Origin: Paenibacillus cellulositrophicus
GTDB taxonomy: Bacteria; Bacillota; Bacilli; Paenibacillales; Paenibacillaceae
Length of the DNA: 64,000 nucleotides
Reading direction: 5' to 3'
Assembly (NCBI RefSeq): GCF_009363095.1
Contig: NZ_CP045295.1
Span: 2,418,001-2,482,000, forward strand
A program made the position numbers and the translations under genes. The notes beneath the pieces are model-generated. The model searched no databases, was not told the origin of the DNA, and saw nothing but the letters and a program-made list of their open reading frames with translations. Positions 8,251 through 63,064 of this stretch are shown in pieces (the first letter of the stretch is position 1; each line of letters begins with the position of its first letter).

Positions 8251-8272
8251 CTTCAAAGCCTTCATGCGGCTT

Positions 8273-10571: not shown

Positions 10572-10588
10572 GAACCTGTTATCATATA

Positions 10589-14439: not shown

Positions 14440-14440
14440 A

Positions 14441-20285: not shown

Positions 20286-20392
20286 GTTTTCGATCCCTTG
20301 GTCTTCGAATCTGTTCTCGATCCATCAGACTTTAGATCTGCTTTGATCCTTCAATCTTCGATCTGTTTCGATCCTTTAGCCTTCGATCAGCT
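20286..20392. repeat. Four degenerate ~25-27 bp tandem repeats
   Basis: Units begin at 20286, 20313, 20340 and 20365, each of the form GNTTTCGATCC...TTCGATCT. The array fills the gap between two operon genes and runs into the last codons of the 22427 gene. With the preceding AT-richer DNA it makes a spacer of about 320 bp (20058-20375) without a gene. Confidence 0.6.
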
Positions 20393-22427
20393 CGCTCAGC
20401 CCCAGCTCCGCTGCGTATTCCGCCGCCTCCTGGGACGCGTACAGAATCAAGCCGATGCACCAGGAGTGCGACAGGGTCAGCATCATTCCTTTGGGCTGGA
20501 AGCAGTTCGTGTTGTAATAACGCTCGGTGACCATGCCTTTATAGGCATTGAAGTCCCCGTCCTCCCGCGCGATAAACTGCAGGAAGCAGGCGATATGGTC
20601 GCGGGTACGGTCCAGGTAATACCGGTCGCCGGTATGCTTCCACAACCGCAGCATTTCCGACACGCAGAATAGGCCGTAGTTGTGCAGATGCTGGTTCGAC
20701 GTGGACGCCTGATCCGCGCCGCGCGAGCGAAAATCGTACTGCGCCAGCAGGGTATGGCGTGGGAAGCACAGATTATACGTCCAGCGGAACGTCATCATCC
20801 AGTCCGCCGCGCTGGATGCGAGCTCCAGCCACTTCGGCTGCCGGTCAAACTCATACAGCAGCACATAGGCGGCGACGGCGTTATAGGCGTCTTCCGAGGT
20901 CGGCGTCAGATGCACATCCTCCGGAGCGCCGTAAATATATTCATCCCTGATAAACTTCTCGTAATAGCTGCCGGCACGCACGGCGGCTTCGGCAAACCGC
21001 GGTTCCCCGAACAAGGCCGCGCCTTCGACCAGCGCCGCGATCCACAGCATGCCGCCGGCGCCGTCCCATTCTTCGACCTCCCCGGTCTCCGCATGGTAAT
21101 AGGAACCGAAATTGCCGTCGCTCCGCTGGCAGGAAGCCGCAAAGTTCAAGTTCGACAGGGCCGCCGCTTCCCAGTCCGGATGGGATGCCCCATGTTCGCG
21201 CTCAAAATCCAGCGCCCGGACCATGAACAGCGTCGCCTCGGCCGCCGTTCTCGCCTGCAGCCAATCGGGCTTCGGATTCCAGCCGGCGGTCCAGCCCCGG
21301 CCCTCGATCCAGGACGCCCAGAAAATGCCGCTCGGCGACAAGCCTTCGGCGATTTTGCTCAGCACGTCCATGCCGGCCGCCGTATACTCGGCTATCCCCT
21401 GCCTGCGTCCGTACTGCAGCAGCGCATGCGCGTAAGGCGCTCCGCTGACCCAGCCTACGTGCATATGGGGGCGGTCCCCCTGTCCTTTAACGTTGTTGTT
21501 CAGCTCGCGGTCAAACGCCGCCGTTTCGTACAATATGCGATGCTCCGGACGATAATGCCACGTATACAGGCCATGGGCGGTCAGCTGCGCCGCCTCGTCC
21601 AGATCCATCCAAGGCCGAAGCGGATAGGCCTCGGCATGCAGCCGGTACATCCGCCGCACAAACGGGTCGTACGCGTGGGGATCGCCGGCCGCCGTATACA
21701 CCCGGTAGCGCAGCGTTACCTGCTGCCCCGGCTCAAACCGTGCGGACGCCAGATCCGCAGGGGCCGGAACCGGATCGCCGACGAACGTCACCGGCTCCTC
21801 CCGGTAAGGGAAGTTCAGCCAGACCGCCGTTCCGTCCGCATTGCCCCGAAAACCGAGGCCCGTCAAGCCCAGCTCCGACATTTCTTCCGTGCAGAGCGCC
21901 CCGCACAGCGTGTCATTCCAGGCAAACACTACCGGCAGCGCCGCCCGGTCCGAGCGGAAGGACCAATAATCCGATACCATCTGCTCCGGATCTCCGCCCC
22001 GGTAGTCATAGCGGGGATAGCGCCGCAAATTTTTCTCAAAGCGATTTTCCTTGTAGAAGGCTCCGGGGATCATCCAGTCCGGCTTCCCCGAACCGATTAC
22101 CTCTGCCCGCAGCGTCAGCCCCATATTTTTGGGAACGTTCCCGTTATACGTTAAATGAAGGGTGACGTCGTAGCCGCCACAGCTGTCCTTCACCGCTTCC
22201 CATCTCGCTTCGGCAGCAAATTCGCCCGAAGAGCCAGACATCGCCAGCCCACCATCCGTCAAGGCATCCACCCTTTCGATCGGAACCTCCAGGGTCGCCC
22301 CGTCCAGCGGGCACCATGCTTCGATCAAATGACCGAACCGCAGCGCAGCCTCCCCCTGCTCCTCACCGGGCCGATACACGTTCAGTACGTAACGCTCACC
22401 ACCGTCTGCCTCTGCCTTCCATCCCAC
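20376..22427 (-). CDS. Unclassified six-hairpin-type carbohydrate-active protein
   Basis: About 683 residues. The first 260 are beta-rich (substrate-binding sandwich-like). From about 290 on, regular helical pairs with aromatic-rich loops (LTAHGLYTWHYRPEHR, HMHVGWVSGAPYAHALL, SCQRSDGNFGSYYHAETGEVEEWDGAGGML) suggest an (alpha/alpha)6 toroid as in six-hairpin glycosidases or lyases. Acidic residues in EEWDGAGG could be catalytic. There is no signal peptide. I cannot name the GH or PL family. I prefer GTG 22427 (GGGAG six bases upstream) over TTG 22451. An operator-like palindrome lies inside at 22130-22143. Confidence 0.6.
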   Translation of the reverse strand: MGWKAEADGGERYVLNVYRPGEEQGEAALRFGHLIEAWCPLDGATLEVPIERVDALTDGGLAMSGSSGEFAAEARWEAVKDSCGGYDVTLHLTYNGNVPKNMGLTLRAEVIGSGKPDWMIPGAFYKENRFEKNLRRYPRYDYRGGDPEQMVSDYWSFRSDRAALPVVFAWNDTLCGALCTEEMSELGLTGLGFRGNADGTAVWLNFPYREEPVTFVGDPVPAPADLASARFEPGQQVTLRYRVYTAAGDPHAYDPFVRRMYRLHAEAYPLRPWMDLDEAAQLTAHGLYTWHYRPEHRILYETAAFDRELNNNVKGQGDRPHMHVGWVSGAPYAHALLQYGRRQGIAEYTAAGMDVLSKIAEGLSPSGIFWASWIEGRGWTAGWNPKPDWLQARTAAEATLFMVRALDFEREHGASHPDWEAAALSNLNFAASCQRSDGNFGSYYHAETGEVEEWDGAGGMLWIAALVEGAALFGEPRFAEAAVRAGSYYEKFIRDEYIYGAPEDVHLTPTSEDAYNAVAAYVLLYEFDRQPKWLELASSAADWMMTFRWTYNLCFPRHTLLAQYDFRSRGADQASTSNQHLHNYGLFCVSEMLRLWKHTGDRYYLDRTRDHIACFLQFIAREDGDFNAYKGMVTERYYNTNCFQPKGMMLTLSHSWCIGLILYASQEAAEYAAELGLSELIEG
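22130..22143. promoter_or_regulatory. Intragenic LacI-type operator (site D)
   Basis: TGGGAACGTTCCCG within the six-hairpin-type gene, encoding NGNVPK in the same frame as the copy in the kinase gene. It shares TTTGGGAACGTTCCCGTT with leader site C. Confidence 0.6.
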
Positions 22428-22482
22428 GATTGACTCCCGCCTTTCTTCCAATAGCCTGCTTTTTCCCGGAAACTTTTCTACA

Positions 22483-35530: not shown

Positions 35531-35710
35531 GTCCCTATTTTGAAATGATTACCATTATTTTTGGATAGAAAAAGACGTTTTCAGCAGAGAATCCCATATT
35601 AGGCTTCGGTCTAATAAACATGCAAAATCACGACATCAGACCATCCCAATACCGATACCCCAAAGGTTTCCGAATCGTCCCTAGGTCCCGGTCCTAGGCC
35701 TCTCCTGCCT

Positions 35711-35740
35711 GTTGACAGCGTTTCCAAAGCGATGACATAA
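35711..35740 (+). promoter_or_regulatory. Promoter of sensor kinase operon
   Basis: TTGACA (35711-35716), 18-base spacer, CATAAT (35735-35740). TGACAGCGTTTCCA within it resembles a CcpA cre site with two mismatches. Confidence 0.55.
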
Positions 35741-35782
35741 TGTTGTACAAAAATCCCGCCTAGGCGGGCGGAGGGAGTAGCC

Positions 35783-37540
35783 GTGCAGACTTGGAAGAGC
35801 CGTTTCAGGCATATGAAAATCAAGAACAAGCTGTCCATCCTGATCGCATTTATCGTTGCCATGACCTTTGCCTTTGCCCTGATTGTGCAGCAGTACGCCT
35901 TCTCGGTGTACGACGAGCAGCTGTACGTGAAGTCCTCCCGCGTGCTGTACCTGTCGTCTTCTGCGATCGAAAAAGAGCTCGAACGCCTCGAGCAGCTGTC
36001 CTTCAACATCATCACCGACACGCAGATCCAGTCCCAGCTCAAATCCATCGCCCAAAGCGACTCCGATTACGATCGCCTGACCCTGCGCAAGCACATGGTT
36101 GACAGGCTCCTCACCTATGTCGGGTCCGAGCCCTCCCTCTACTCGATTCACATGGTCGATGCGGCCGGAGCACAGCAGGATGTCGGCAGCCTGGTTCCCA
36201 TCCAGGCCGGAAAGCGGGATGTGATCCTCAGGCTGGCGGACAACGCCGAAGGCCAGGCGCGCTGGACCTTCCCCGACGCATCCGATCCGGCCCTGATCCT
36301 GACCCGTCAAGTCCGTTCCTACTCGGGCACCATGTTCGACCTGCAGGATATCGGCACCATTTTCATGCGGATCAACATGGAGCGGATCGTGCACGAGCTT
36401 GGCGCCGGGGAAGGCGACCTCATCGTGACCTCCGGGCCGGACGTCATTTATCCCTCGCAGCCGCATTTCGATCCCTCCCTCATCCAGAGCTCCATCACTT
36501 CCGAGACCGGATATTTTATCAAGGAAATTCAGGGAAAAACGTACTTTGTTGCCTATAACCGTTCTTACGCCACCGGGTGGACCTATCTGAACGTGACCCC
36601 GTTCAACCAAATTTTCCGGCAGATCGTCCTGATCAAGGAAATCGTTATCGGCGTCTTCATTCTGATATTCGCCTTCGCCATTCTGTGGGGCATCCGCTTC
36701 TCCCGGGGGTTGACCCGCCCGATCGAGAATCTGATCGCCCGCATGAAGCTCGCAGAGAAGGGGAACTTCGCCGAAGCGAACATTCTTGCCGGCGATCAGG
36801 AGCCGCCCGCGATGGACGAACTCGGCCTGCTGCACCGGACGTTCCGCCTTATGGTGGAGAGGATCAACGATCTGATCACTGAAAATTACGCCAGCCGCCT
36901 CCTGATCAAGGAGACCGAGTTCAAGGCGCTGCAGGCACAGATCAACCCGCATTTTTTGTACAACACGCTGGAGTCCATCAACTGGATGGCCAAAATCAAC
37001 AAGCAGACGCAAATTTCCCAAATGGTGCAGGCGCTGGCGTTTCTGCTCCGCAATTCGGTCAGCCTGAAGGAGCCGATCCTGACGCTGAAGGAGGAGCTGG
37101 AAATGGTGCAGCATTACATCACGATCCAGGAATTCCGCTTTGAAGAGCGACTGTCCTTCCACATGGACGTTTCCGAACGGGAGCACTTCCGGAAAATTCC
37201 GAAGCTGACGCTCCAGCCCCTGCTCGAAAACGCGATTCATTATGCGCTGGAGCCTTCCGTCGGCACGTGCACCATTTCCTTGACCAGCCGGGAGGAAGCG
37301 GACGCGTTCATCCTCATCGTCGAAGACGACGGCCCGGGCATGGCGTCAGATACGCTCGAGCTGCTGCGGGAAGGGAGGCTGACCACGGCGGGGAATGGCA
37401 TCGGCCTGCTTAACATCGACGAGCGAATCCGCTTTGCGTTCGGCGAGAATTACGGGCTCTTCATCGACAGCGCTCCCGGTCAGGGGACCCGCATTCATAT
37501 CAGGTTACCGAAAGAACTGGAGGGATCCGAGCATGTATAA
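35783..37540 (+). CDS. YesM-type sensor histidine kinase
   Basis: 585 residues from GTG (GGAGGGAG upstream). One membrane helix at about 15-37, an extracellular sensor domain of about 240 residues, a second helix at about 280-302 (IVIGVFILIFAFAILWGI), then HAMP. ALQAQINPHFLYNTLESINWMAKI carries the phospho-His of the HisKA-like family PF06580, and LLENAIHYALEP with VEDDGPGM the ATP-binding N and G boxes. In Paenibacillus this class senses extracellular glycans or binding proteins. Its end overlaps the regulator gene by eight bases. Confidence 0.92.
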   Translation: MQTWKSRFRHMKIKNKLSILIAFIVAMTFAFALIVQQYAFSVYDEQLYVKSSRVLYLSSSAIEKELERLEQLSFNIITDTQIQSQLKSIAQSDSDYDRLTLRKHMVDRLLTYVGSEPSLYSIHMVDAAGAQQDVGSLVPIQAGKRDVILRLADNAEGQARWTFPDASDPALILTRQVRSYSGTMFDLQDIGTIFMRINMERIVHELGAGEGDLIVTSGPDVIYPSQPHFDPSLIQSSITSETGYFIKEIQGKTYFVAYNRSYATGWTYLNVTPFNQIFRQIVLIKEIVIGVFILIFAFAILWGIRFSRGLTRPIENLIARMKLAEKGNFAEANILAGDQEPPAMDELGLLHRTFRLMVERINDLITENYASRLLIKETEFKALQAQINPHFLYNTLESINWMAKINKQTQISQMVQALAFLLRNSVSLKEPILTLKEELEMVQHYITIQEFRFEERLSFHMDVSEREHFRKIPKLTLQPLLENAIHYALEPSVGTCTISLTSREEADAFILIVEDDGPGMASDTLELLREGRLTTAGNGIGLLNIDERIRFAFGENYGLFIDSAPGQGTRIHIRLPKELEGSEHV

Positions 37541-48462: not shown

Positions 48463-51400
48463 TTATTTTCCCGCCTGCCCCAGCTTGGCCAGGGCGTTAT
48501 ACAAGATCTGGGCCGTTTCGGCCCGGGTGGCCTGGCCATCCGGATGAAACCGGCTAGGCCCCTGCCCTTGAATCAGTCCGGCGGCGTACGCAGACCGGAC
48601 GGCTTCCTGCGCCCATGCCGGCGAACCGGCGACGTCCGTAAACGGCGCCGTTTCCCCGCCGGTTGCGGCGGTTCCGCCCGCGGCCCGGTAGGCGCGGACG
48701 ATCATGGCCGCCGCTTCCTGGCGCTTGATCAAGGCGTCCGGCGCGAAGCTTGCGCCGCTGACGCCTTGGACGATGCCCGCCTTGGCGGCGGCTGCGACAG
48801 CTTCCGCGTACCATGCCGCGGAAGGCACATCGGTGAAGGGCGCGCTGCCGTCGCCCTTCAGGTGCAGCAGGCGAACCAGCATCGCCGCCATTTCGGCGCG
48901 GGTCACCGGCTGATCCGGCGCGAAGCTGCCGCCGCCGACGCCGTCAATGAGATGCTTCGCCGCCAGCTCCCGGATCACACCGGAAGCCCAATGTCCGCTC
49001 GTATCGGCGAAGCTTTTGGTGTACTCCAGAACGGCGTAAGCGGCATCCAGCGAGCTCACTTCGGCTTTCAGCTTGCCGCCTGTGACCGTTCCGCCGATAT
49101 ACGTGAGCACGCCTTGGCTGTTCAGGCCATACAGGCCGGTCAGCTTGGCATCCAGCCCCGAAACCACGGGGAGCTCCAGCGTTATCGGCTGCTGCAGCGC
49201 CGTGATCGGGTGAACCTGGCCATCCTTCGATATGAGGATCAGGTTGAGGGTAACGAGGCTGCTTCCTGCGCGGAGCACCGCACCTTCCGCCTGCCCGGCC
49301 TTCGCCACCCGCTCTGCGGCCTCCGTCTCCGAGGCGCGGGATGCCGCCAGCCGAATCGTGCTGCCTTCGAGCTGATCGGCGGGCACCTTGCCGCTGGCCG
49401 CCTGCAGGATGCCTGCGGGCAGCGTCAGCTTCAGGTCAGCCGCGTTCACCGTCAGCGGCTGTCCCTGGAGCAGCGAGGCGGCGCTGCCCGGCAGAATCAG
49501 CTCTTCGAAAGGCTGATTGGAATCCAATACGGCTCCGCCTTTCGCCAGAATCGCCGTCAGCTGCGCGGCGTTCAGCTTCCATTTGCCGCCTTGGCCCGGC
49601 TTTGGATCGGGCTGGGCAGGCGGAGTTACCGGCGGCTGCACCGGTACAGGAGAGCCTCCTCCACCGTTGCCTGAATTCCCTCCGTTATCTCCCCCGCCGT
49701 TACCCGGGTCGCCTCCGCCAGGGTGATCTCCCCCGCCATTACCCGGATCGCCTCCGCCTGGATTATCTCCCCCGCCGTTGCCCGGGTCGCCTCCACCAGG
49801 GTTGTCACCATCTCCCCCTCCCGGCTGCTCCGGAGCTTGAACGGTAAGTTCATACTCGGCCGACAACGATCCGTACGCGGCCGATATCACCGTCTTCCCT
49901 TCGGCCAGCGCAGTCACTACGCCCTGTTCGCTCACCGAAGCGACGTCCTCATGGCTGCTGCTGAAGGTTACACCTTCTAGCACCTGAATGCGCGTGCCGT
50001 CTGCGTAGACCGCTTCCGTTACCGTCTGATCGGTCTCCCCTTCCTTCAGCACTACTTTGCCCGTCAGCGACAACGATTCCGGTTCACCTTCCGGCACCGG
50101 GTTTACGCTGACGATCGTCTCCGCGAACAGATCCGGGTTCACCGTGCTTGCCGCCCGGATGACGGCCGTTCCCGTGCCGGCCGCCGTCAACCGGCCTTCC
50201 GGCGATACCGTCACCACTTCGCCGCCCTCCCCTGTCGGCTCGGCGCTGTAGACGGACCACGTGACGCCAGGGTCCGCTCCATCCGGCTTCACCTTGGCGG
50301 TCAGCTGCCGGGTTTCGCCGACGGCCAGCTTCACGTCCTGCTGCTCGATCTCGACCGACTCCGGAGCCGGAGCCTCCGTCTGCTTCGACAGCGTAAACTC
50401 GTCGACGGTTCGTCCGCCGACCGTCTTCGTCACAAAGTGCAGGCTGTCGCCGTCCACTTCGACCGAAGCGTACATTTGCGTCGCTTCATCGTCGGTGATC
50501 CGCTGCCAGTCCCGCTTGGTCAGCGAGTAAAATTTCGGTCCGGTTGAGCCGGCCACGACATAGGTCGTCCCCTGCCCGTCCGGGACGATCTCGTTGTTCA
50601 TCATCGGAAAGGTCCGCAGGTAAATATGATCATGCCCGTTCAGGACGAGATCGACCCGATGCCGCTCGAGCACCGGCGCCCACAGCCGCCGGATGTCGGC
50701 CGTATCGTAAATGCTGCCGTACGGGCCGCGGTGAAAGATGGCGATCTTCCATTTTTTATCCGTCCTGGACAGGTCCTGGTCGAGCCACTCCTTCTGCTCC
50801 TCGTACTGGTATTCGCTGTTCAGAACGACAAAATGAATGTCCTTGTAATCAAAGGAAAAATTGCTTCCCGTCAGGCTTGGCACACCGTTGCCCGGCTGGT
50901 TGAAATGGGCAAGGAAATCATTGTTTTCTTTCGTTCCCATCACCTCATGGTTGCCGATCGCGCCGACCAGTGTCGTGTTCAGGAACGCCTCCTGCGCTTC
51001 ACTGAACCACCACTTCCATTCCTGCTCGTTGAAGCCTTTGTCGACCATGTCGCCGACATGGACCATAAACTCGGCGTCCGGCGAATCTTCCACCGCCTTC
51101 TTCACCGTGCTGCCCCACAGCTTGAACCCTGCCAAGTCTCCCGCCTGAGAGTCGGCGAAATACAGGAACTTGGTATGATCGCCGTCAGCCTCAGCGGTCT
51201 TGAACGTGCCCTGCGGACTGTAATGACCGCTTCCGTCACCGACGCGGTACACGTATTCGGTGCCCGGCTCCAGGCCGTTCACCGTCGCCTTGTGCACCCG
51301 GACCGCACCCAGATCGAGTGTCTGGTACAGATAGCTTGTTCCTTCCGTTTTCACCGCATTCGGCTGGTCAAACCCGGTAAAATCCGCTTTTTTCACCACT

Positions 51401-54400
51401 TCAACCACGGTCTGCTCCACAGCCGGGCTCGTATGCCAGATGAATCCGCGGGATGCGGCCGGATCCTCGCCCATGCCGACGTTGATGTTGTACGGCGTTT
51501 CGGTACCGGACAGCGGCGACACCTTAAACTCCGCCACCGGGCTGTACTGGTCTCCCTTCATTGCCTGCACCTGATACGTCTTGACCTCAGCCGTCAGCAG
51601 CTTGGTGCTCAGCTCGCCCTGTGCATCGGTCGTTCCGACCGGACTGCCGTCCGCGGTGATCTGCGCGCCTTCTACCAGTTCCCCCGACTCGTCTTTGACC
51701 GAAAAGACCGTTTCGTAGCCCTGGATGTTGCCGTTCTCGTTCCAGGACAGCGACAGGGCGCTCTTGATATCCGATTTCAGCGGCAGCCCGAAAAAGGGAT
51801 ACACCACGCTGCCTGTACCGGCAAAGGTAACGTTACCGGACTCGAATCGGATTTCGTTTGTTCCGGCGGCGTCCTTTTTCACGTCAAAGCTGATTTGTCC
51901 GATCAAATCGCTGTCGGTCAGCCCCGCTTGGTCCAATTGGCTGAAGGTCAGCGCGGCCGTGCCGTCCTCGCCGATAACTGCGCTTGCCTGGGTCGCATCC
52001 AGCTTGCCGCCCGGAATAAACTTGAGATTCTCCACCTTGCTCAGGTCAAAAGCAAGCCGGAGCTGTCCTCCCTGCAAGCCGGAGGCCTTCACCCCTTTGA
52101 TATCCACCGTGTAGGTACGGCCCCCGTACAATTCCTTCGGCGTGTCATACGTCAGCTTCGAGCCGCCCGTGTCCACGTTGAAGGTCCACGCCTCGGTCGT
52201 CCGGTTGCCGGCCAGGTCCGTCACCGACACCTTGGCCTGATGCAGCCCGTCCGCCAGCGGCGTCGCCGGGGTGTAATAAATCCGGCCTTCCGGAGGATAC
52301 AGCGTGTGCTGCACGCGCTGGCCATCCAGGTCGAACCGGATCGAGTCCGGATCGATCAGCGTCGTGCCCGGATGCTGCGCCGGATCATATCCCGCGTCTT
52401 CGCCGTACACCTTGATCACCGGCTGGTTGCTGCGGATCGTCTCCCCGTCCGCCGGCGAGAAGTCCTTCAGGACCGGCGGCTCCATGTCGTCCTGATTCGG
52501 ACCGTACAAGGCTCGGATCTGATCGACGTAGATCGCCCCGGCATCCTTCTTGGCCGATGAAGTTTCCATGTAGCGCACCGGCATATCCATGATCAGCGGG
52601 AGCGTCCGGCCTTTGGGCACTTCTGCCTCCAGGTACTTCCACCCGGTCCAGTCAATGCCGATACTCTGGTCGGTAAAGTCGAGCGGTATCGTTCCCTTGC
52701 TGTCGCGCAGCTGTGCACGCAGCCAGTGGGTTTTGCCGTCCCCGTACACCCACATGCTGATCTTCTCCGGATAACCCGGGATTTGAATGGCCTCCGCCTG
52801 CGTCTTGCTCTGCAGGTAGGCGCCCGAAGTTCCCGGCGTGCCGGTAAAATCATACTCCAGCTTCAGCGAACCGCTGCCGAAACGGACCAAATCTTCATTC
52901 GTCTCGATGCTCACCTTGGACGTTTTAAACTGCGCGCCGGCCGACGGCAGGTACTTGTCCAGGCCGTTTTCGAAATCCTCCAGCACCATCGGAGGCTGGC
53001 CGATGGTCACATCCATCTGAGCTTCCACCCCCTTGTAGCTCACCACAATTTTGCCGCTCAGCTCATTGCCTCCCGCCGCGGTAAAGACGCCGGCTTCGTC
53101 GATCGAGCCGATCGGACCCTCGACGCGCCATGTCAGCAGGCGGTTGTCGGCCTGCACCATCTGGCCGTCGCGGAGCGCTGTTACCTTCAGCGTCTCCGAC
53201 TGGCTAGGCGGGAAGCTGCGCAGCTGATCGCCAAATTTCAGTTCGGTCAGCGTATCGACTACCTCGACTTTGCCGGCTCCGCTTGCGCCCCCGGACGTGA
53301 CGGCGATATCCGCCTGTCCGGGCGTGGAACCCGCCGTAAAGACGCCGCTGCCGTCGATCGTTCCGATCGCCGGGTTGACGCTCCACTCCGGCGTGCCGTC
53401 CATCGCGGCCGGATGCAGGTTGGCATCGACGCCGGCCGCCTTAAAGGCCGCCGTGGAGCCGGCCAGCACCCTCGCCAGCTGCGGCTGGACGACCAGCTTG
53501 TCCACCGGCCCTTCCGCCGCCTTGTTCACAAGCAGCAGCCCGTTGGCCGTCTTGCGCTCCCCGCCGTCCGAGGGAGAGTTCAGCAGCGTACGGCTGGTGT
53601 CGCCCGGCATGCGGGCGATAAATGTCGACGAGCCGCCGCCGTCCAGGTTGATGGCGTTCACGACGCCCATCTCCTCCATGATCTGCCCCAGCTCAGCCAG
53701 CGTCACGCCTTCGCTGAAGCCCGGCTGGCGCCCGTCGATTTCCAGCATGACGACGGAGCCGTCCGCTTTCGTACCGATCGCCGAGCGCGGATGGGCCGCC
53801 GGGTCGCTGTTCGGCTGCGCCGCCCCGTCCTTGACGAGCAGCGCGGAGCCGCCGATGGCCATCGTCACGCCGCTCCAGGCCGGCTCGAGGCCGAAGGAGA
53901 CCGATGCCGTATCGCCAACCTTAAGGCCGGCGAGCACCGCGCGCTGGCTGCCGGAAGCCGACAGGATGACCTGTCCCGGGGCTATCGACGTGCTGCCTTT
54001 GTCTTTATGGACTCCGGCTACCTTCATCCCCAGCGTCTCCCCGCTTTTGACCTCTCCCTTCACGACATCAAGAACGACTTCGTCTCCCAAATCGTTGGTC
54101 ATGGTCGTGCCGTAGAAGTCGGGTGTGTACAATACGAGATCGTTATTGCCCCGCGTCCGGTTGATGGACGTCAGCTCAGTCTTCTGTCCATCGATCTCCA
54201 GCGTCCGCGTAAGCCTCGGACTCGGTCCATATATCGTCGTGCCGTCCTCCTTGATGCCAAACGCGTACCAGTCATTGGGCGGACTCGTCAGTATTTTTCC
54301 GCTGCCCATGAAGTAACCGAGCGGGACGCCGGAGGACATATCATAAAAGTCCCCGTTGATCCCGGCGATCACCCGATTCCCCGCTTTGTCGATATCCGCA

Positions 54401-54717
54401 GCCATTTTGCTGACCGGCTGCATGCCGTATACTTTGCCGTCCGTCATGCCGGGCTCAAGCGCCAGAGCCGGATTGGACGGATCGAACTCCACCATGTGAA
54501 GCTTCTCCAACCCGCGGTCCAGCTTCATGTCCTTCCAGGTATAGACCGCGCCCGGTCCGATCTGGACCTGCCGCTCGTCGACGATGCTTCCGGCTGCCGC
54601 GGCCTGTGCGCCAGCTTCCGCCGCCAATACGGGCCGCCCGCCGGGCAGAGCCAGGGTCAGAACCAGCGTACCGGCCAGCACCGACGCCCATAGGCTCCTC
54701 GTCCGTTTTCTTATCAT
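48463..54717 (-). CDS. Giant SLH surface protein: phosphodiester glycosidase plus metallophosphatase
   Basis: 2084 residues. Signal peptide 1-32. NAGPA-type phosphodiester glycosidase domain about 115-398 (VIAGINGDFYDM, NAINLDGGGSSTF). Ig/Big-like domains about 405-573, lectin-like sandwich about 576-740, Ig-like 745-850, cohesin-like 855-975. PAP-type fibronectin domain 1072-1175, then calcineurin-like metallophosphatase 1183-1390 with FADSQ, GDMVD, GNHE, FHRGPYG and NGHDH. Two Big2 domains 1452-1627, a Gly/Asp/Pro linker 1631-1690, an unknown domain, and three SLH repeats 1903-2080 for cell-wall attachment. NAGPA enzymes remove GlcNAc from a phosphodiester and the phosphatase could then remove the bared phosphate. 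It is monocistronic. Confidence 0.88.
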   Translation of the reverse strand: MIRKRTRSLWASVLAGTLVLTLALPGGRPVLAAEAGAQAAAAGSIVDERQVQIGPGAVYTWKDMKLDRGLEKLHMVEFDPSNPALALEPGMTDGKVYGMQPVSKMAADIDKAGNRVIAGINGDFYDMSSGVPLGYFMGSGKILTSPPNDWYAFGIKEDGTTIYGPSPRLTRTLEIDGQKTELTSINRTRGNNDLVLYTPDFYGTTMTNDLGDEVVLDVVKGEVKSGETLGMKVAGVHKDKGSTSIAPGQVILSASGSQRAVLAGLKVGDTASVSFGLEPAWSGVTMAIGGSALLVKDGAAQPNSDPAAHPRSAIGTKADGSVVMLEIDGRQPGFSEGVTLAELGQIMEEMGVVNAINLDGGGSSTFIARMPGDTSRTLLNSPSDGGERKTANGLLLVNKAAEGPVDKLVVQPQLARVLAGSTAAFKAAGVDANLHPAAMDGTPEWSVNPAIGTIDGSGVFTAGSTPGQADIAVTSGGASGAGKVEVVDTLTELKFGDQLRSFPPSQSETLKVTALRDGQMVQADNRLLTWRVEGPIGSIDEAGVFTAAGGNELSGKIVVSYKGVEAQMDVTIGQPPMVLEDFENGLDKYLPSAGAQFKTSKVSIETNEDLVRFGSGSLKLEYDFTGTPGTSGAYLQSKTQAEAIQIPGYPEKISMWVYGDGKTHWLRAQLRDSKGTIPLDFTDQSIGIDWTGWKYLEAEVPKGRTLPLIMDMPVRYMETSSAKKDAGAIYVDQIRALYGPNQDDMEPPVLKDFSPADGETIRSNQPVIKVYGEDAGYDPAQHPGTTLIDPDSIRFDLDGQRVQHTLYPPEGRIYYTPATPLADGLHQAKVSVTDLAGNRTTEAWTFNVDTGGSKLTYDTPKELYGGRTYTVDIKGVKASGLQGGQLRLAFDLSKVENLKFIPGGKLDATQASAVIGEDGTAALTFSQLDQAGLTDSDLIGQISFDVKKDAAGTNEIRFESGNVTFAGTGSVVYPFFGLPLKSDIKSALSLSWNENGNIQGYETVFSVKDESGELVEGAQITADGSPVGTTDAQGELSTKLLTAEVKTYQVQAMKGDQYSPVAEFKVSPLSGTETPYNINVGMGEDPAASRGFIWHTSPAVEQTVVEVVKKADFTGFDQPNAVKTEGTSYLYQTLDLGAVRVHKATVNGLEPGTEYVYRVGDGSGHYSPQGTFKTAEADGDHTKFLYFADSQAGDLAGFKLWGSTVKKAVEDSPDAEFMVHVGDMVDKGFNEQEWKWWFSEAQEAFLNTTLVGAIGNHEVMGTKENNDFLAHFNQPGNGVPSLTGSNFSFDYKDIHFVVLNSEYQYEEQKEWLDQDLSRTDKKWKIAIFHRGPYGSIYDTADIRRLWAPVLERHRVDLVLNGHDHIYLRTFPMMNNEIVPDGQGTTYVVAGSTGPKFYSLTKRDWQRITDDEATQMYASVEVDGDSLHFVTKTVGGRTVDEFTLSKQTEAPAPESVEIEQQDVKLAVGETRQLTAKVKPDGADPGVTWSVYSAEPTGEGGEVVTVSPEGRLTAAGTGTAVIRAASTVNPDLFAETIVSVNPVPEGEPESLSLTGKVVLKEGETDQTVTEAVYADGTRIQVLEGVTFSSSHEDVASVSEQGVVTALAEGKTVISAAYGSLSAEYELTVQAPEQPGGGDGDNPGGGDPGNGGGDNPGGGDPGNGGGDHPGGGDPGNGGGDNGGNSGNGGGGSPVPVQPPVTPPAQPDPKPGQGGKWKLNAAQLTAILAKGGAVLDSNQPFEELILPGSAASLLQGQPLTVNAADLKLTLPAGILQAASGKVPADQLEGSTIRLAASRASETEAAERVAKAGQAEGAVLRAGSSLVTLNLILISKDGQVHPITALQQPITLELPVVSGLDAKLTGLYGLNSQGVLTYIGGTVTGGKLKAEVSSLDAAYAVLEYTKSFADTSGHWASGVIRELAAKHLIDGVGGGSFAPDQPVTRAEMAAMLVRLLHLKGDGSAPFTDVPSAAWYAEAVAAAAKAGIVQGVSGASFAPDALIKRQEAAAMIVRAYRAAGGTAATGGETAPFTDVAGSPAWAQEAVRSAYAAGLIQGQGPSRFHPDGQATRAETAQILYNALAKLGQAGK
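49648..49827 (-). repeat. Tandem coding repeats of the Gly-rich linker
   Basis: The DNA encodes alternating GGGDNPGGGDPGN-type units between the second Big2 domain and the C-terminal part of the SLH protein. The repeats are near identical at the DNA level and could vary in number between strains. Confidence 0.75.
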
Positions 54718-56392: not shown

Positions 56393-57292
56393 ATGACGGT
56401 AAGCAAAAAGAAGCTTCGCGGCTGGGCCAAAGGCTATCTGTTTATTCTGCCTTCCATTATTGGCTTCAGCGTGTTTGTCGCCTATCCGCTGTTGTCGTCC
56501 ATTTATTACGCCTTAACGGAATGGAGCGGCTACGATAAGCCCCGTTTTGTCGGCTTCGACAACTTTAAATACATGTTCACGGAGGACCCGGCCTTCTGGC
56601 CTTCGGTCCGGGCGACGCTGTATTTTGTCATCATGAGCGTTCCTTTATCGCTGATTCTGGGCCTTTTGCTGGCCATGCTGCTGAACAAAAGCCTGCCCGG
56701 CATCAAATGGTTCCGCACGATTTATTACCTGCCGACCGTCGTGCCGTCCATCGCGACACTCACGCTGTGGCTGTTTATCTATCAGCCCCAGTACGGGCTC
56801 GCCAACTCGCTGCTCAGGCTGCTCGGACTGCCCGAAGGCACCTGGCTGACGAGCGAAACGACCGCGCTTCCCTCCATCGTGCTGATCGGCCTGTGGCAGG
56901 TCGGATCCGGCGTCATTATTTTCTTGAGCGGTCTGCAGTCTGTTCCCCAGGAGCTGTACGAGGCGGCCGAAGTCGACGGAGCTGTCCGCTGGCGGATGGC
57001 CCTGCACATTACGATTCCCATGATTACTCCTATCCTGTTCCTTCAGCTCATACTCGGCATCATCGGCGCCTTCCAGGCCTTCAACCAGGTACAGGTTCTG
57101 ACCGGCGGCGGCCCGAACTTCTCCACATCCCTGCTCAACTTCAAAATTTACAACGACGCCTTTAACGGCCGCATGTTCGGCTATTCGATCGCGGAGGTCT
57201 GGGTGCTGTTCGTCATCATCATGATCTTCACCGCGCTGACTTACCGGTACTCGAACCGGTTCGTGTATTACGAAAGCGACAATTCGAAATAA
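56393..57292 (+). CDS. Sugar ABC transporter permease, MalF type
   Basis: 299 residues. GYLFILPSIIGFSVFVAYPLLSSIYYALTEWSGYDKP is the first membrane segment, and YEAAEVDGAVRWRMALHITIPMITPI the EAA loop. GGGAGG lies ten bases before ATG. First gene of the mannanase cluster. Confidence 0.92.
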   Translation: MTVSKKKLRGWAKGYLFILPSIIGFSVFVAYPLLSSIYYALTEWSGYDKPRFVGFDNFKYMFTEDPAFWPSVRATLYFVIMSVPLSLILGLLLAMLLNKSLPGIKWFRTIYYLPTVVPSIATLTLWLFIYQPQYGLANSLLRLLGLPEGTWLTSETTALPSIVLIGLWQVGSGVIIFLSGLQSVPQELYEAAEVDGAVRWRMALHITIPMITPILFLQLILGIIGAFQAFNQVQVLTGGGPNFSTSLLNFKIYNDAFNGRMFGYSIAEVWVLFVIIMIFTALTYRYSNRFVYYESDNSK

Positions 57293-57307
57293 GGAGGCTC
57301 CCTGCTG

Positions 57308-58183
57308 ATGGTGATGCAAACGGAAGTACGGACAACAACCCGCAAACCCAGACGGAAATTCAGCATCCTGGACACCATCCGGTTTATCATTCTGACCATC
57401 GGTGCCATCGCCATGCTGTTTCCGCTGCTGTGGATGGTGACCATTGCCCTGAAGGGCAACAATGACGTGTTTAAAATCCCGCCCGAGTGGTTTCCCCGGG
57501 AGCTTCACTGGTCTAACTTCGTAACCGGAACGCGGGAGATCAACTTCTGGCAGACGTTCGGCAACTCGATGTTCATCGCGGTGGTGTGCACGATCGGCCA
57601 GATCGCCAGCTCCGTGCTGGTCGGCTACGGGCTTGCCCGATTAAGCTTTCCCGGCCGGAAGCTGTGGTTCTCGCTGTTTGTGGGCAGCCTGATGCTGCCG
57701 GGCTTTGTCGGCATGATCCCGCTCTTTAACCTCTACACGAGTCTGGGCTGGTACGACTCCTGGCTGCCGATCATCGTGCCTGCTTTTTTCGGGAACGCGA
57801 CATTTTCATTCCTGTACGTCCAGTATTTGAAGACAATTTCCGTTTCCTTTGACGAGGCGGCCAAAATCGACGGCGCTTCCGACTTCTACATTCTGATGAA
57901 AGTGCTCGTACCCATGACAACGCCGGTCATCATGACGATGGTTATCTTCTCCTTCCAGGGAGCATGGAACCAGTACCTCGAGCCGCTGATTTATATTATC
58001 GACCCGAGCAAATGGACGCTGTCCCTGGCGATGGCTTCCTACAAAGGCACCTATGCGACCGCCTGGAACCTGTTCATGGCCGCGGATCTCATCTACATTC
58101 TGCCGATGCTGCTCATCTTTTTCTTCGGCCAGAAGTTCTTCATGCAGGGGCTTGGCTCCGTCAATTCCGCTTCATTAAAATAA
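57308..58183 (+). CDS. Sugar ABC transporter permease, MalG type
   Basis: 291 residues. [28 protein letters not shown] is the EAA loop; six membrane segments. AAGGAGG overlaps the end of the previous gene. Partner of the MalF-type permease and the lipoprotein that follows. Confidence 0.92.
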   Translation: MVMQTEVRTTTRKPRRKFSILDTIRFIILTIGAIAMLFPLLWMVTIALKGNNDVFKIPPEWFPRELHWSNFVTGTREINFWQTFGNSMFIAVVCTIGQIASSVLVGYGLARLSFPGRKLWFSLFVGSLMLPGFVGMIPLFNLYTSLGWYDSWLPIIVPAFFGNATFSFLYVQYLKTISVSFDEAAKIDGASDFYILMKVLVPMTTPVIMTMVIFSFQGAWNQYLEPLIYIIDPSKWTLSLAMASYKGTYATAWNLFMAADLIYILPMLLIFFFGQKFFMQGLGSVNSASLK

Positions 58184-58297
58184 TTCGGCCGCCCCGGGCG
58201 GATAGGAGGTGGTGCCTGCGGCGGTGGGATCAAGGAAATGATATATCAGGTACAGGTGTCAATTGTATTCGAAATGAGATATCAGGGAGGTCTTTCT

Positions 58298-59650
58298 ATG
58301 ACAAAGGGTGCAAAAAAGTGGTTTAGCGGCATGCTCACGTTACTCCTGTTCTCCAGCCTGCTCGCCGCGTGCGGCGGTGGCGGGTCATCCGATTCCGCCG
58401 GTTCGGCGGGCACGTCCGATTCGGGTGGCACGTCCGGTTCGGAATCGTCCGGCAAGAAGGTCGAAGTAACGATGATCACCTGGGAATCGAAAGAAATGAA
58501 CGATAAAATCATGGCGGCCATGAAGCAGTTTGAGCAGGAAAACCCCGACATTACGGTGAAACTCATCCCTACCCCACTCGACAATTACGGCGTCAAGGTC
58601 AACGGGATGCTGACCGCCAAGAAGGCTCCGGACATTTTTATGACAGGCAACGACATGCTGCTGGACAACGCGTCCAAGGGACTGCTGTACGACTGGACGT
58701 CCCAGGCGGAGCAGGACAAGGAATTCATGGACGGCTTCTACAAAGGCGTCGTGGACAGCTGGCATTATGACGGCAAGCTCGTCGGTCTGCCCGGCCTGCT
58801 GAATACGTATGGCATTTTCTATAATAAAAAAGCGTTCCAGGACGCCGGTCTGACCGAGCCGAAAATCGGCTGGACTTATAACGATCTGTTCACAGCTATG
58901 GAGAAGCTGTCCAGCAAGCAGGGCGGTGTGCAGCAGTTCGGCTATTACGCTCCGCTTGATCCGTTCTATCTGTCGCTCTATTCGGTCTCCTCGGGCGCCG
59001 CTCCGTTCGCCGACTCCATCCTCAATCCGACCAAAGTGGAGATCAGCGACAAGTTCGTGGAAGGCGTGGAGAAATACAAAACCGCTATTGCAAACGGTTA
59101 CATGAATCCGCCGACCTTTGATTTGACCAACGTCATGAGCTCCTTTAAACAGGGCAAGGTGCCAATGACGCTTCAAGGCCAGTGGGTTGCGGACGATTTG
59201 ATCCGTACGGCGCCGAAAGATCTGCAGTGGGGCTTCGTGCCGATGCCGGTCGTGAACACCCAATCCGAGATTTACGACGCGGTGGGCTGGTGCAGCCCGA
59301 CAACGGTCAAAAATCCGGAAGCCGTCTGGAAAGTGCTGAAATTCCTGGACTCCAAAATGTACGAAGAAGTGCTTCCGCAAACGCCGGTCGCTCCGGCAGC
59401 GTACCAGGCATCCTCTTCCGCTTACTTTGAAGCGCTGAAGACGGCGGGCCATGCCGATGTCGGGGAAGGTATCGACCACATTTTGAAATCGCCTGATACG
59501 CAGCCGGTCCGCTTCCTCTCGTCCTGGGCAGGCAAAGCGAATCCGTTCATCGAAGCTTCCTGGAAAAACGTCCTGATGGGCAAAGCGCCGATCAGCGAGC
59601 TGAACACGATGGCGGATAAGATCAACAAGGTCATTTCGGAAGCCAAGTAA
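58298..59650 (+). CDS. Sugar ABC transporter substrate-binding lipoprotein (CUT1)
   Basis: 450 residues from ATG 58298 (GGGAGG seven bases upstream; an earlier in-frame ATG would spoil the signal). MTKGAKKWFSGMLTLLLFSSLLAACGG has an LAAC lipobox, then a Gly/Ser spacer. VTMITWESKEMNDKIMAAMKQFEQENPDITVKLIPTP opens the binding-protein fold. The neighbouring GH76 enzyme suggests alpha-1,6-mannooligosaccharides as ligand. Confidence 0.9.
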   Translation: MTKGAKKWFSGMLTLLLFSSLLAACGGGGSSDSAGSAGTSDSGGTSGSESSGKKVEVTMITWESKEMNDKIMAAMKQFEQENPDITVKLIPTPLDNYGVKVNGMLTAKKAPDIFMTGNDMLLDNASKGLLYDWTSQAEQDKEFMDGFYKGVVDSWHYDGKLVGLPGLLNTYGIFYNKKAFQDAGLTEPKIGWTYNDLFTAMEKLSSKQGGVQQFGYYAPLDPFYLSLYSVSSGAAPFADSILNPTKVEISDKFVEGVEKYKTAIANGYMNPPTFDLTNVMSSFKQGKVPMTLQGQWVADDLIRTAPKDLQWGFVPMPVVNTQSEIYDAVGWCSPTTVKNPEAVWKVLKFLDSKMYEEVLPQTPVAPAAYQASSSAYFEALKTAGHADVGEGIDHILKSPDTQPVRFLSSWAGKANPFIEASWKNVLMGKAPISELNTMADKINKVISEAK

Positions 59651-59806: not shown

Positions 59807-62800
59807 ATGACTAAGAGCAAACGCCGCATGAACCGGCTGTTGAGTGTGCCGCTGGCGGCTGCCCTCACCCTCGGCTCCGTCACCGTCTGGGGACCGGGCA
59901 CAACCTATGCGTTCAGCGCCGAGGACGGAGACACGGCCATCGAAGCGTTTAACGCCAAGTTCTGGGATCCGGCGGCCAATATGTTCTGGAGCAGCACCGA
60001 TCACAAGGATCACCAGGGGTTCTGGGTGGAAGCCGAGCTGTGGGAATTGGTGATGGACTCGTATCTCCATACGTCAGATCCCGAGCTGAAGGCGCAGCTG
60101 CGCAAGCAGATCGACGACGTGTATACCGGCACGGTAGCCAAATACGGCAGCAACTGGACGAACAACCCCTTCAACGACGACATTATGTGGTGGGCGATGG
60201 GCAGTGCGCGGGCGTACCAAATTACCGGCGACCAGAAGTATTTGGACGCGGCAAAGTACCATTTTGACTGGGTATTCAATACGCAGTGGGACGAAGACTT
60301 CGCCGGCGGCGGTATCTGGTGGCTGAACAGCGAGCATAACACCAAAAATGCCTGCATCAACTTCCCGGCGGCTGAGGCGGCGGTCTATCTGTACAACGTC
60401 ACCAAGGATCAGCATTATCTGGACGCCGCGAAGCAAATTTTCAAATGGGGCAAAACGATGCTGACCGACGGCAACGGTAAAGTGTTCGACCGGATCGAAA
60501 AGGAAAAAGGGCCGATCCCGGACGCGACGCACTACAACCAGGGTACATACATCGGGGCGGCCGTAGGCTTGTACCGCATTACCGGGGACACCTCTTATCT
60601 GGACGAAGCGGTTAAGGCGGCGGTTTTTACCAAAGATCATTTGGTCGATAACGGCGGCGTGCTGAACTTCGAGGGACCAAACGGTGACCTGAAGGGCGGC
60701 AAAACGATCCTGCTCCGCAACCTGTCCTTCCTTCAGAAGGCGCTGGACGAGCGGACCGAAAGCAAATACAAGGACTTCGGCGCACAGTTTGACGCCTGGG
60801 TCTCCTTCAATGCCGAGCTCGCCTGGACGCACCGGAACGCCGACAATATCGTCGATGGCAACTGGGCGGGACAGCTGCTCTCCGGCACTTACGAGTCCTG
60901 GTCGTCCGCTGCAGCCGTGGAAGCGCTGAATGCGCTGAAGCCTCAGGATGCCGAGATTCATTATCCGGAAAAGGACCCGTACAGCAAACTCGAAGCCGAG
61001 CGTTACAACATCGGTCAAGGCTTCATCCTGGAGGGTGCGCTGGAAGGAACGCTGCAGCTGGGCGGCATCGAGGCGGGTGACTTTGCGGCCTATAAAAACG
61101 TGAACTTCGGCACATCCGGCGCCAAAGGATTGATCGCGAGAGCGGCCAGCGGAACCGGCGGCGGCAACATCGAAGTCCACCTGGATTCGCTTGACGGGCC
61201 GAAAGCCGGAACGCTGAACGTCGAAGGTACCGGCGGGTGGAACAACTACATCGATGCCGTCACCGTGCTCAAGGATGACCAGGGCAATCCGGTTACCATT
61301 ACCGGCACGCATGACGTCTATCTCGTTTTCACCAAAACGAAAGACCAATACCTGTTCAACCTGAACTGGTTTAAATTCACCACCGGCGACCCGACCCGCA
61401 CCGATGCTTATGCCAAGCTCAAGGGCGTTAATTATGACAGCAGCGAGGGCCTGAGCAAAGCGCAGGGCGGTTTCCTCGACGCGATCCACAACAACGCCTA
61501 TGCCTCTTATAAAGGCATCGATTTCGGCTCCGGCGCCGCCGGCATAACGGCACATGTCGCCAGCGGCAATCAGGGCGGATCGATCGAGGTGAAGCTGGAT
61601 TCCCTGAACGGCCCTACCGCAGGCGTCGTGGAGATTCCGGCCCTCGGCGGCTGGGATCAATGGGTGGACATCATGGCGAACCTTGATGATAAACTCGCGG
61701 TTGGCGTGCATGACGTGTACCTCATTTTCCACGGAAAAGACGGCAGCGACTTCCCCTGCAACCTGGACTGGTTCACCTTTACGACGATGAAGGGCACGGC
61801 GAGAGATGCTTACGCCAAGCTGGAAGCTGAAAACCGGACGAACGGCGTCGGTTTCGGCACGGAAAGCGGCGGCGGCCAGACCTATCTGGCCGGCATTTTC
61901 GGTCCGAACAACGGGTACGCCATGTACAACTACGTTGACTTTGGCGACACGAGCCCGACAAAGTTCCATGTCAATGCGGCCAGCGATACGAGCGGAGGCA
62001 CGGTCGAGGTGCGCATCGATAGCCTGAACGGTCCGGTCATCGCCAGCAACAAGGTCACCGGAACGGGCGGCTGGCAGAACTTCAAAGTGTTCTCGACCGA
62101 TGTGACGACACCGGTGACCGGTAAACATATCGTGTTCCTGCTCTTTAAAGGTTCGGACTATCTGTACAATCTCGACAAATTCACCTTTGGCGATCCGTCC
62201 GTCTTTACGAAACCGAACCCGCCGACGGAACCGGTGGAAGATCACGTGCCGCCGGGCGACGTGGAGAACGTGCTCGTCAGCCGCGGTGACGGCCAGCTGA
62301 CCCTGACCTGGGACGGCCCGTACGATTTGGACGCGGACAAAGTACGGGTCACTGTGACGAGCGGCGGCCAGCAAGTGGGTGACGTTCTCGAAGTGAAGCG
62401 CGGCATTCAAAAAGCCGTCATCCCGGGCATCGAGGACGGCAAGGACTACAGCATCCTGCTCCAGGCTGTGGACAAATCAGGCAACGTGTCCAAAGGCGTT
62501 ACGGTGGACAGCAAGGTTGAGCCCGCCTTCGCCCTGACGGTGAACGGTAATGCCGTGAAGGACGGCGATACGCTGGACGACAGCGCGGTACTGTCCTTCC
62601 AGGCCGGCGGTGGCCTTGCCGCAGGCGGATCGGCCGTGCTGACGCTGGCCGGCAAGGAATACAAGGTCGATGCGCAGCAGGCTGGCGTTGACGTGGCCCT
62701 GGCCGGCAAGCTGGGCGACCAGACGGTCACCGTCGACGTTTACGGCGGCTCGGGTGAGCCGTCCCGGACGACGCTGCAGCTGCATGTGACGACCGGCCCG

Positions 62801-63064
62801 GCCTCCATCCAGCAGCTGATCGACCGCTACAGCGCCGCCGGCGACCTGGGCGGCGGACTCGTGCCGCAGCTGACCAATGCACTGAAGCAGGCGCAGCACC
62901 AATGGGACGGCAGCAAACCGGACCAGGCCGTGAAGCACCTGCAGGACTTCCTGAAGCATCTGGACAACAAAGGCCAGAGCGGCAGCGTCACAGATGACGC
63001 CAAAGCCGTGCTGACCGCGGATGTGAACGCACTGATCGCCCAATGGCAGGGTGCGGGGAAGTGA
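59807..63064 (+). CDS. Secreted GH76 endo-alpha-1,6-mannanase with three CBM6
   Basis: 1085 residues. Signal peptide about 1-36. GH76 domain about 40-380; NPFNDDIMWWAMGSA carries the adjacent catalytic pair Asp124-Asp125. CBM6 modules at about 391-526, 531-659 and 666-795, each with YxxYxxVxFG-type and LDSLNGP signatures. Fibronectin III about 813-905, an Ig-like domain, and a C-terminal helical FIVAR-like part (SIQQLIDRYSAAGDLGG). There is no SLH or sortase signal, so it is released or held by its C-terminus. It cleaves alpha-1,6-mannan backbones such as yeast mannan after side-chain removal. AAGGAGG precedes the ATG. Confidence 0.92.
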   Translation: MTKSKRRMNRLLSVPLAAALTLGSVTVWGPGTTYAFSAEDGDTAIEAFNAKFWDPAANMFWSSTDHKDHQGFWVEAELWELVMDSYLHTSDPELKAQLRKQIDDVYTGTVAKYGSNWTNNPFNDDIMWWAMGSARAYQITGDQKYLDAAKYHFDWVFNTQWDEDFAGGGIWWLNSEHNTKNACINFPAAEAAVYLYNVTKDQHYLDAAKQIFKWGKTMLTDGNGKVFDRIEKEKGPIPDATHYNQGTYIGAAVGLYRITGDTSYLDEAVKAAVFTKDHLVDNGGVLNFEGPNGDLKGGKTILLRNLSFLQKALDERTESKYKDFGAQFDAWVSFNAELAWTHRNADNIVDGNWAGQLLSGTYESWSSAAAVEALNALKPQDAEIHYPEKDPYSKLEAERYNIGQGFILEGALEGTLQLGGIEAGDFAAYKNVNFGTSGAKGLIARAASGTGGGNIEVHLDSLDGPKAGTLNVEGTGGWNNYIDAVTVLKDDQGNPVTITGTHDVYLVFTKTKDQYLFNLNWFKFTTGDPTRTDAYAKLKGVNYDSSEGLSKAQGGFLDAIHNNAYASYKGIDFGSGAAGITAHVASGNQGGSIEVKLDSLNGPTAGVVEIPALGGWDQWVDIMANLDDKLAVGVHDVYLIFHGKDGSDFPCNLDWFTFTTMKGTARDAYAKLEAENRTNGVGFGTESGGGQTYLAGIFGPNNGYAMYNYVDFGDTSPTKFHVNAASDTSGGTVEVRIDSLNGPVIASNKVTGTGGWQNFKVFSTDVTTPVTGKHIVFLLFKGSDYLYNLDKFTFGDPSVFTKPNPPTEPVEDHVPPGDVENVLVSRGDGQLTLTWDGPYDLDADKVRVTVTSGGQQVGDVLEVKRGIQKAVIPGIEDGKDYSILLQAVDKSGNVSKGVTVDSKVEPAFALTVNGNAVKDGDTLDDSAVLSFQAGGGLAAGGSAVLTLAGKEYKVDAQQAGVDVALAGKLGDQTVTVDVYGGSGEPSRTTLQLHVTTGPASIQQLIDRYSAAGDLGGGLVPQLTNALKQAQHQWDGSKPDQAVKHLQDFLKHLDNKGQSGSVTDDAKAVLTADVNALIAQWQGAGK

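Follow-up and report, generated by a model that had tools for sequence, protein, structure and literature searches.

A two-enzyme surface protein of Paenibacillus with predicted phosphodiester glycosidase and phosphatase domains, and its candidate targets

What could be the substrate of a bacterial surface protein that carries, on a single chain, a phosphodiester glycosidase domain of the NAGPA type and a metallophosphatase domain? The question is raised by a gene in a 64,000-nucleotide stretch (the window; contig NZ_CP045295.1, positions 2,418,001 to 2,482,000) of the Paenibacillus cellulositrophicus genome, which consists of 7.42 Mb in two contigs. The gene lies on the minus strand at window positions 48463-54717, begins with an ATG preceded by a GGGGAGG-type ribosome site, and encodes 2084 amino acids. 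The two catalytic domains seem intact, as judged from alignments and predicted folds, and have been conserved together on the same surface chain; a cut in two steps is therefore a fair reading. Tentatively, a phosphate bridge of the bacterial wall, namely the linkage between wall glycopolymer and peptidoglycan, appears to be the likeliest target.

Domain architecture and catalytic sites

The original prediction, made from the sequence alone, placed a NAGPA domain, a metallophosphatase and three SLH repeats on one chain. Pfam matches above cut-off and structure matches bear this out. The features, all on the minus strand and listed from the N-terminus, are as follows (PAP stands for purple acid phosphatase, PAP_N for its N-terminal domain).

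48463..54717, minus strand: whole gene, in the domain order signal peptide, NAGPA, two Ig-like, CBM-like, Big_13, cohesin-like, CarboxypepD_reg/CnaB-like, PAP_N, metallophosphatase, Big_2, Gly-rich linker, three SLH
54619..54717, minus strand: signal-peptide-like N-terminus, residues 1-33, read by eye
53518..54582, minus strand: NAGPA catalytic domain, residues ~46-400, motifs NGDFYD, HPRSAIG, DGRQPGFSEG and LDGGGSST
53002..53511, minus strand: two Ig-like, strand-rich domains, residues ~403-572, from strands in the model
52483..53001, minus strand: CBM-type jelly roll, residues ~573-745, from structure matches
52162..52476, minus strand: Big_13 Ig-like domain, residues ~748-852, Pfam, in 55/55 aligned members
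51763..52161, minus strand: cohesin-like domain, residues ~853-985, under the Pfam cut-off in this protein
51502..51765, minus strand: CnaB/CarboxypepD_reg-like domain, residues ~985-1072, under cut-off
51196..51495, minus strand: PAP N-terminal (FN3-like) domain, Pfam
50374..51180, minus strand: metallophosphatase domain, ligand motifs D1189, GD1223, GN1256HE, H1329 and GH1362DH1364
49798..50265, minus strand: Big_2 domains, Pfam
49528..49785, minus strand: Gly/Pro/Asn/Asp-rich linker, from the translation
48493..49020, minus strand: three SLH repeats, residues ~1900-2075, motifs TRAE, KRQE and TRAE

The matches above the Pfam cut-off comprise NAGPA (PF09992, E 8.7e-39, 133.9 bits against a cut-off of 25), Pur_ac_phosph_N (4e-15), Metallophos (6.2e-15), the three SLH repeats (family E 4.4e-39), Big_2 and Big_13. 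All 55 aligned family members, the window protein included, match PF09992, and all have PAP_N together with the metallophosphatase domain. Among the same members, CarboxypepD_reg is matched in 17 (E<=0.01), and Big_2 is matched in 6 for the Ig-like region at residues ~403-572. The module that had been called lectin-like corresponds to a CBM-type jelly roll (FlaA1 Z 16.6, CBM27 Z 12.5, CBM11 Z 11.5), a region that is recognized as FlaA in 11 and as CBM_11 in 5 of the 55 (E<=0.01). The cohesin-like module falls short of the Pfam cut-off in the window protein (21.8 against 24.1 bits), but is found in 39 of the 55 at E<=0.01. Long open reading frames on the plus strand opposite the gene (414, 644 and 655 amino acids) were interpreted as by-products of the coding sequence.

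The signal-peptide-like N-terminus and the SLH repeats point to secretion and anchoring at the cell surface. The genome encodes a CsaB protein (279.5 bits, against a cut-off of 213.1), whose gene is clustered with genes of the TagA and TagO types (Pfam). Three repeats and a CsaB gene are thus both present, as expected for an SLH-anchored surface protein, with the pyruvylated polymer itself being predicted.

Conservation was judged from 72 aligned rows, the window protein and its 71 orthologs, in which missing residues are gaps in shortened frames. The NAGPA residues N121, D123, R311, D328, R330 and D359GGGS, as well as the phosphatase residues D1189, D1223, N1256, H1257, H1329, H1362 and H1364, are invariant in 68-69 of the 72 rows, with gaps in the remainder. 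Nearby positions of the NAGPA motifs do vary: G122 is replaced by A in 6 rows, D126 by E in 9, and H309 by Y in 16. The NG.., the R of PR(S/T)AIG, the DG and the NLDGGGS motifs align with those of the bacterial structure 3ohg and of animal NAGPA. Degenerate catalytic residues, which would have spoken against the original prediction, were not seen at these positions, and the predicted folds match as well.

The AlphaFold models have a mean pLDDT of 90.6 for residues 40-750 and 92.9 for residues 745-1485. Of the ortholog stretches, 54 of 67 and 54 of 66 entered the alignments behind the two models together with the window protein, and a further alignment took 21 of 29 orthologs and the window protein. 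The NAGPA-side model matches solved structures with Z scores of 36.5 (6ozd), 31.5 (3ohg), 30.2 (5h3k) and 25.7-27.7 (animal NAGPA, with guinea pig 6pku at 27.7). The phosphatase-side model matches plant PAPs with Z 36-44 at 18-23% identity; for the kidney-bean enzyme (6hwr), Z is 43.9 with a root mean square deviation of 2.1 over 357 aligned residues. The PhoD structure 2yeq is matched with Z 29.0, but the PhoD_N domain scores only 19 against a cut-off of 30 bits, so that the protein is not assigned to the PhoD family.

The PAP type of the phosphatase thus stands at the level of the fold, but not of the metal site. In the purple enzymes, the GD motif is followed, at the third position beyond its Asp, by a metal-binding Tyr (GDxxY). 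At the corresponding column 1226 (GDMVD), 50 of the 69 rows with a residue have D and 19 have E, and the Tyr is absent. Six of the seven PAP metal ligands are present by motif. The enzyme is therefore properly named a PAP-fold metallophosphatase, and is probably not purple.

The kind of architecture is already reported. Published work describes extracellular calcineurin-like domains fused to SLH and to NAGPA modules (PMC11488536; preprint PMC11188070), although the text of PMC11488536 names SLH and NAGPA among the fused domains and does not state that they occur on one chain. The ShfP-type enzymes of that radiation share PAP_N/FN3 and calcineurin-like domains, Ig-like modules and secretion (here predicted by eye), and the window protein has their combination of a calcineurin-like domain with Ig/FN3 and adhesion modules. 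Animal NAGPA (6pku, 6pki, 6u11) and the bacterial DUF2233 protein BACOVA_00430 (3ohg) have the catalytic domain (Z 26-32) and its motifs in common with the window protein, but the latter is a multi-modular SLH chain fused to a phosphatase, with predicted activity. The plant PAPs and PAP phytase (1kbp, 6git; Z 38-44) share the FN3-like N-terminus followed by the metallophosphatase, and differ in the Tyr ligand that is Asp or Glu here. Among the SLH surface proteins of P. alvei, SpaA and SlhA (PMC3776848, PMC6081394), SpaA is structural, whereas the window protein combines two enzymes. Among the papers listed in the literature search, we found no assay of a NAGPA-PAP-SLH architecture, and nothing that links purple acid phosphatase, Paenibacillus and SLH.

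Relatives and the age of the enzyme pair

A search for the same architecture in other genomes, as the original prediction had proposed, was successful. A query of 1447 residues that spans NAGPA to phosphatase is matched near full length, with the match starting at residue 3 or earlier and reaching at least residue 1408, in 47 of 150 genomes. The own genome is among them, and one of the 47 has an in-frame stop in the gene. Such recurrence speaks against a chance arrangement. A further five of the 150 have partial or split copies (G003, G023, G043, G063 and G147). The best 80 of 94 stretches yielded 71 distinct named loci, 70 from Paenibacillus and 1 from Cohnella. The nearest named orthologs are from P. 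rhizosphaerae (95% identical) and Paenibacillus sp. XY044 (93%), in a list from which records of the own or very near genomes may have been excluded.

Of the 72 rows, 54 have three SLH repeats, 3 have two, and 15 lack them. Five of the SLH-less rows (L050, L052, L053, L087 and L102) end in cohesin and a dockerin-like tail, which is above the Pfam cut-off for dockerin only in L102 and was called by similarity in the other four. L070 and L096 end in Ig domains, and the remaining eight rows are cut or shifted frames (L098, L103, L085, L090, L092, L093, L097 and L039), which may be broken genes or assembly errors. One of these is the P. alvei DSM 29 ortholog (L098), with an open frame that stops at 1623 amino acids, ahead of any SLH repeat. 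Outside the order, at least 3 of 398 genomes of the phylum encode NAGPA, PAP_N and metallophosphatase on one chain. No SLH repeats were found on these chains, one of whose loci stops 42 residues before the end of its frame. Because these relatives lack SLH repeats, it is quite possible that the two enzymes were joined before the anchor was acquired.

The persistence of the pair bears on a reading that dispenses with a pathway altogether. The protein could be a union of two broad surface scavengers, one for sugars from phosphodiesters and one for phosphate, joined only through the shared benefit of the anchor. Consistent with separable parts, many relatives match the query at ~1030-1405 only, in open frames of ~410-490 amino acids, and in some frames of 627-1619 amino acids the match does not extend past the first ~590-812 residues of the query; a conserved operon was not found either. 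However, the NAGPA-Ig-CBM-cohesin-PAP order is kept in the 47 near-full-length carriers, the enzyme pair shares a chain even outside the order, and both sites are intact together. We consider the scavenger reading possible, though rather unlikely.

The own genome holds six NAGPA genes in total. One of them, ~19 kb from csaB (L125 7820-10534), encodes 904 amino acids with a Cu_amine_oxidN1 tail, and has a two-component pair of the DegS/LuxR type on one side and the gene of a large SLH protein on the other. In the own genome, a single dockerin match was found (C1:3570371-3570517, L130), in an 863-amino-acid frame ~17 kb from another NAGPA gene. This protein is a possible partner of the cohesin-like module.

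A phosphate bridge in the bacterial wall as candidate target

In the reading that we tentatively prefer, the protein would be secreted and kept on the pyruvylated wall polymer through its SLH repeats. The NAGPA domain would hydrolyse an alpha-sugar-1-phosphodiester, leaving a phosphate monoester on the other sugar, and the neighbouring PAP-fold metallophosphatase would then take off that phosphate. The target would be the alpha-GlcNAc-1-phosphate link (GlcNAc, N-acetylglucosamine) that joins a wall glycopolymer to muramic acid, to be cut during wall turnover or feeding on dead cells, beside enzymes that cut the glycan strands of peptidoglycan. By analogy, GlcNAc-alpha-1-P-6-MurNAc (MurNAc, N-acetylmuramic acid) would closely resemble GlcNAc-alpha-1-P-6-Man, the substrate of the animal enzyme. 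According to PMC7831098, the prototype wall-glycopolymer attachment is a phosphodiester to C6 of MurNAc, and for the NAGPA uncovering enzyme, splitting of UDP-GlcNAc is described (PMC12024695).

The two-step chemistry of the original prediction is plausible, but the teichoic acid substrate that went with it is less likely. Classical wall teichoic acid is an unlikely substrate on the cell itself: no match to PF04464 (TagB/F-type polymerase) was found in the own genome, while the control matches in B. subtilis, and at E<=1e-3 the family is present in 8 of 47 carriers (39 lack it) against 29 of 103 non-carriers. According to PMC6030368, the wall of P. alvei CCM 2051T contains no teichoic acid, and an ortholog, with a shortened frame, is present in the genome of P. 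alvei DSM 29.

The lean towards the wall is due to a genomic context that recurs in several lineages and that is directly upstream and operon-like in one group. At the 71 loci, flanks of up to 10 kb per side were scanned, and 100 random 20-kb stretches from 20 relatives served as controls; the flanks averaged 16.8 kb against 20 kb in the controls, and are incomplete at 15 loci, which are shorter than 24 kb. GHL10 occurs near 11 of the 71 loci against 1 of 100 controls, SpoIID near 5 against 1, and either or both near 13 against 2 (one-sided p 2.5e-4). One of the two control hits (L177) sits ~24 kb from the ortholog of that very genome. When loci are grouped by identity, 4 of 26 clusters at 68% (p 0.016) and 6 of 39 at 75% (p 0.006) have such a neighbour. 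SpoIID cuts the same kind of peptide-free peptidoglycan glycan as DigH. The E. coli DigH protein belongs to GHL10 (E 6.2e-136), and is described as degrading peptide-free peptidoglycan glycans (PMC12288456).

In L052, L053 and L087, the gene immediately upstream encodes a SpoIID-GHL10 fusion that includes a cohesin domain; it is on the same strand and 27-127 nt away from the first possible start of the ortholog. L050 and L096 have an upstream SpoIID without GHL10, which in L050 carries a cohesin domain and lies on the same strand at a distance of 23 nt. In L050, L052, L053 and L087, the SpoIID gene and the NAGPA-PAP gene both end in dockerin-like tails, and their products may form a small wall-degrading complex reminiscent of a cellulosome. 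In L052, the apparent two-gene operon runs from SpoIID-GHL10-cohesin-dockerin (4027-9762) to NAGPA-PAP-cohesin-dockerin (9890-15085); the arrangement is alike in L053, L087 and L050 (in the last without GHL10).

Several observations weigh against a substrate in the wall. Animal NAGPA takes off a terminal GlcNAc, whereas the wall polymer continues beyond it, so that the NAGPA domain would need to act internally. The wall-polymer bridge of P. alvei is reportedly (Schaffer 2000) a pyrophosphate. The SpoIID and GHL10 families were picked after GHL10 had been seen among the neighbours, which makes the p-values post hoc; 58 of the 71 loci have neither family in the scanned flanks, and neither is present in the window. 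No conserved neighbour family was found, the commonest (by eye, a response regulator with an AraC-type end) occurring at 14 of 72 loci. Nor does the region ahead of the window gene contain a pair of Pho boxes of the type TT[ACT]A[CT]A. Finally, the distribution of alpha-mannan enzymes among carriers, described below, suits phosphomannan better than the wall.

Regulation by phosphate was rejected on the basis of the empty Pho box scan at the window gene. The scan gave a match in 5 of 40 rows (window and L038-L076), three of them identical, and in the promoter scan, sites were fewer than in shuffled sequence.

The wall reading has a more specific and less probable form, which we regard as unlikely: a wall-polymer release enzyme of an undescribed kind, with the NAGPA domain cutting the bridge of the pyruvylated polymer, the phosphatase clearing muramic acid 6-phosphate, and SpoIID/GHL10 digesting the bared strand. 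If this were so, the protein of SLH species would cut the polymer that anchors S-layers, itself included, and the dockerin-bearing group would have the same activity arranged as a small wall-degrading complex. The release of wall glycopolymers from peptidoglycan in Gram-positives seems little known, whereas their attachment by LCP ligases is treated in PMC7831098. A conserved protein with predicted sugar-1-phosphodiesterase and phosphatase activities, with relatives beside peptidoglycan-glycan enzymes, makes the question of polymer release directly testable, as is that of the substrate.

Fungal phosphomannan and other readings

The proximity of GH76 had suggested fungal phosphomannan as the substrate. 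The neighbours concerned are the following.

56393-59650: ABC transporter genes, beside the GH76 gene
59807..63064, plus strand: GH76 protein with 3 CBM6 and FIMAH, ~5 kb from the gene

In this scenario, a surface machine would act on foreign phosphomannan: the NAGPA domain would uncap mannose or GlcNAc from mannose-6-phosphate diesters, the phosphatase would dephosphorylate, and GH76 and GH92 would digest backbone and side chains. As a matter of location, the hint does not carry far. Of the 71 loci, just 2 have GH76 nearby, those of the two closest relatives (0 of 100 controls, p 0.17), and 1 has GH92 (0 of 100, p 0.42), all in one lineage. As a matter of gene content, it fares better. GH76 is commoner in carriers (22 of 47) than in non-carriers (21 of 103; p 0.0016, or 0.0065 after stratification for genome size), and so is GH92 (20 of 47 against 21 of 103; p 0.006, or 0.040 after stratification), while the GH53 control is not raised (19 of 47 against 51 of 103). 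Four families were tried, and the statistics ignore the kinship of the genomes. The five partial or split carriers were counted as non-carriers, and a repeat without them gave the same outcome.

In the XY044 relative (L038/L139), GH76 lies on one side of the ortholog, and a second metallophosphatase and GH92-CBM6 on the other. The island there (L139 1871-14196), between the gene and a DEAD-box gene, encodes an F5/8-PA14-metallophosphatase, an SLH protein and GH92-CBM6. It is absent from the window, where only 256 nt separate the gene from the DEAD-box gene. A further hint of alpha-mannosides is a GH38 alpha-mannosidase gene inside the window (14441-16870, minus strand), which adjoins aldolase and sugar-kinase genes. 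However, no GH92 was found in the own genome, and known bacterial uncapping of phosphomannan is reportedly (Tiels 2012) the work of a glycosidase, of the GH92 family. On balance, we rank phosphomannan second to the wall as a substrate and find this reading doubtful; if true, the protein would be a one-protein tool for removing phosphate from fungal mannan.

It is improbable that the protein is a weapon or an envelope-remodelling factor directed against other bacteria. The precedent is formed by Bacillota proteins with a TelC and NAGPA core and diversifying binding domains, for which biological conflict is proposed (PMC12419801). They too are large, modular surface proteins that combine NAGPA with a second enzyme, but that enzyme is of the TelC type and not a metallophosphatase. 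The SLH repeats in 57 of the 72 rows would hold the protein on its maker, and no recurring neighbour family fit for immunity was seen (single immunity genes were not sought).

Equally improbable is a sporulation-stage phosphoesterase that frees glycerol or phosphate from teichoic acid or lipid headgroups. The own genome has sulfatase-family open reading frames of 593-741 amino acids, a size compatible with lipoteichoic acid synthases, and lipoteichoic acid is a conceivable substrate. The model would be B. subtilis ShfP, which belongs to the same wide radiation of extracellular calcineurin-like enzymes, but which is described with seven Ig domains, a domain of the lamin tail type, and neither NAGPA nor SLH (PMC11488536).

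Some minor observations concern the neighbourhoods. The window also contains open reading frames of 691 (20376-22451, minus strand) and 519 amino acids (35681-37240, minus strand) with no Pfam match at 1e-5. Among further families, NAGPA is near 1 of 71 loci against 0 of 100 controls, GH38 near 0 against 2, and a second PAP-type domain near 5 against 0. In L045 (17714-21769), an SLH protein with two PAP-type metallophosphatase domains is encoded ~1.8 kb downstream of the ortholog, past an oxidoreductase gene. By similarity, this protein is also present in L046 and L049, and in L051, where it is split over two frames.

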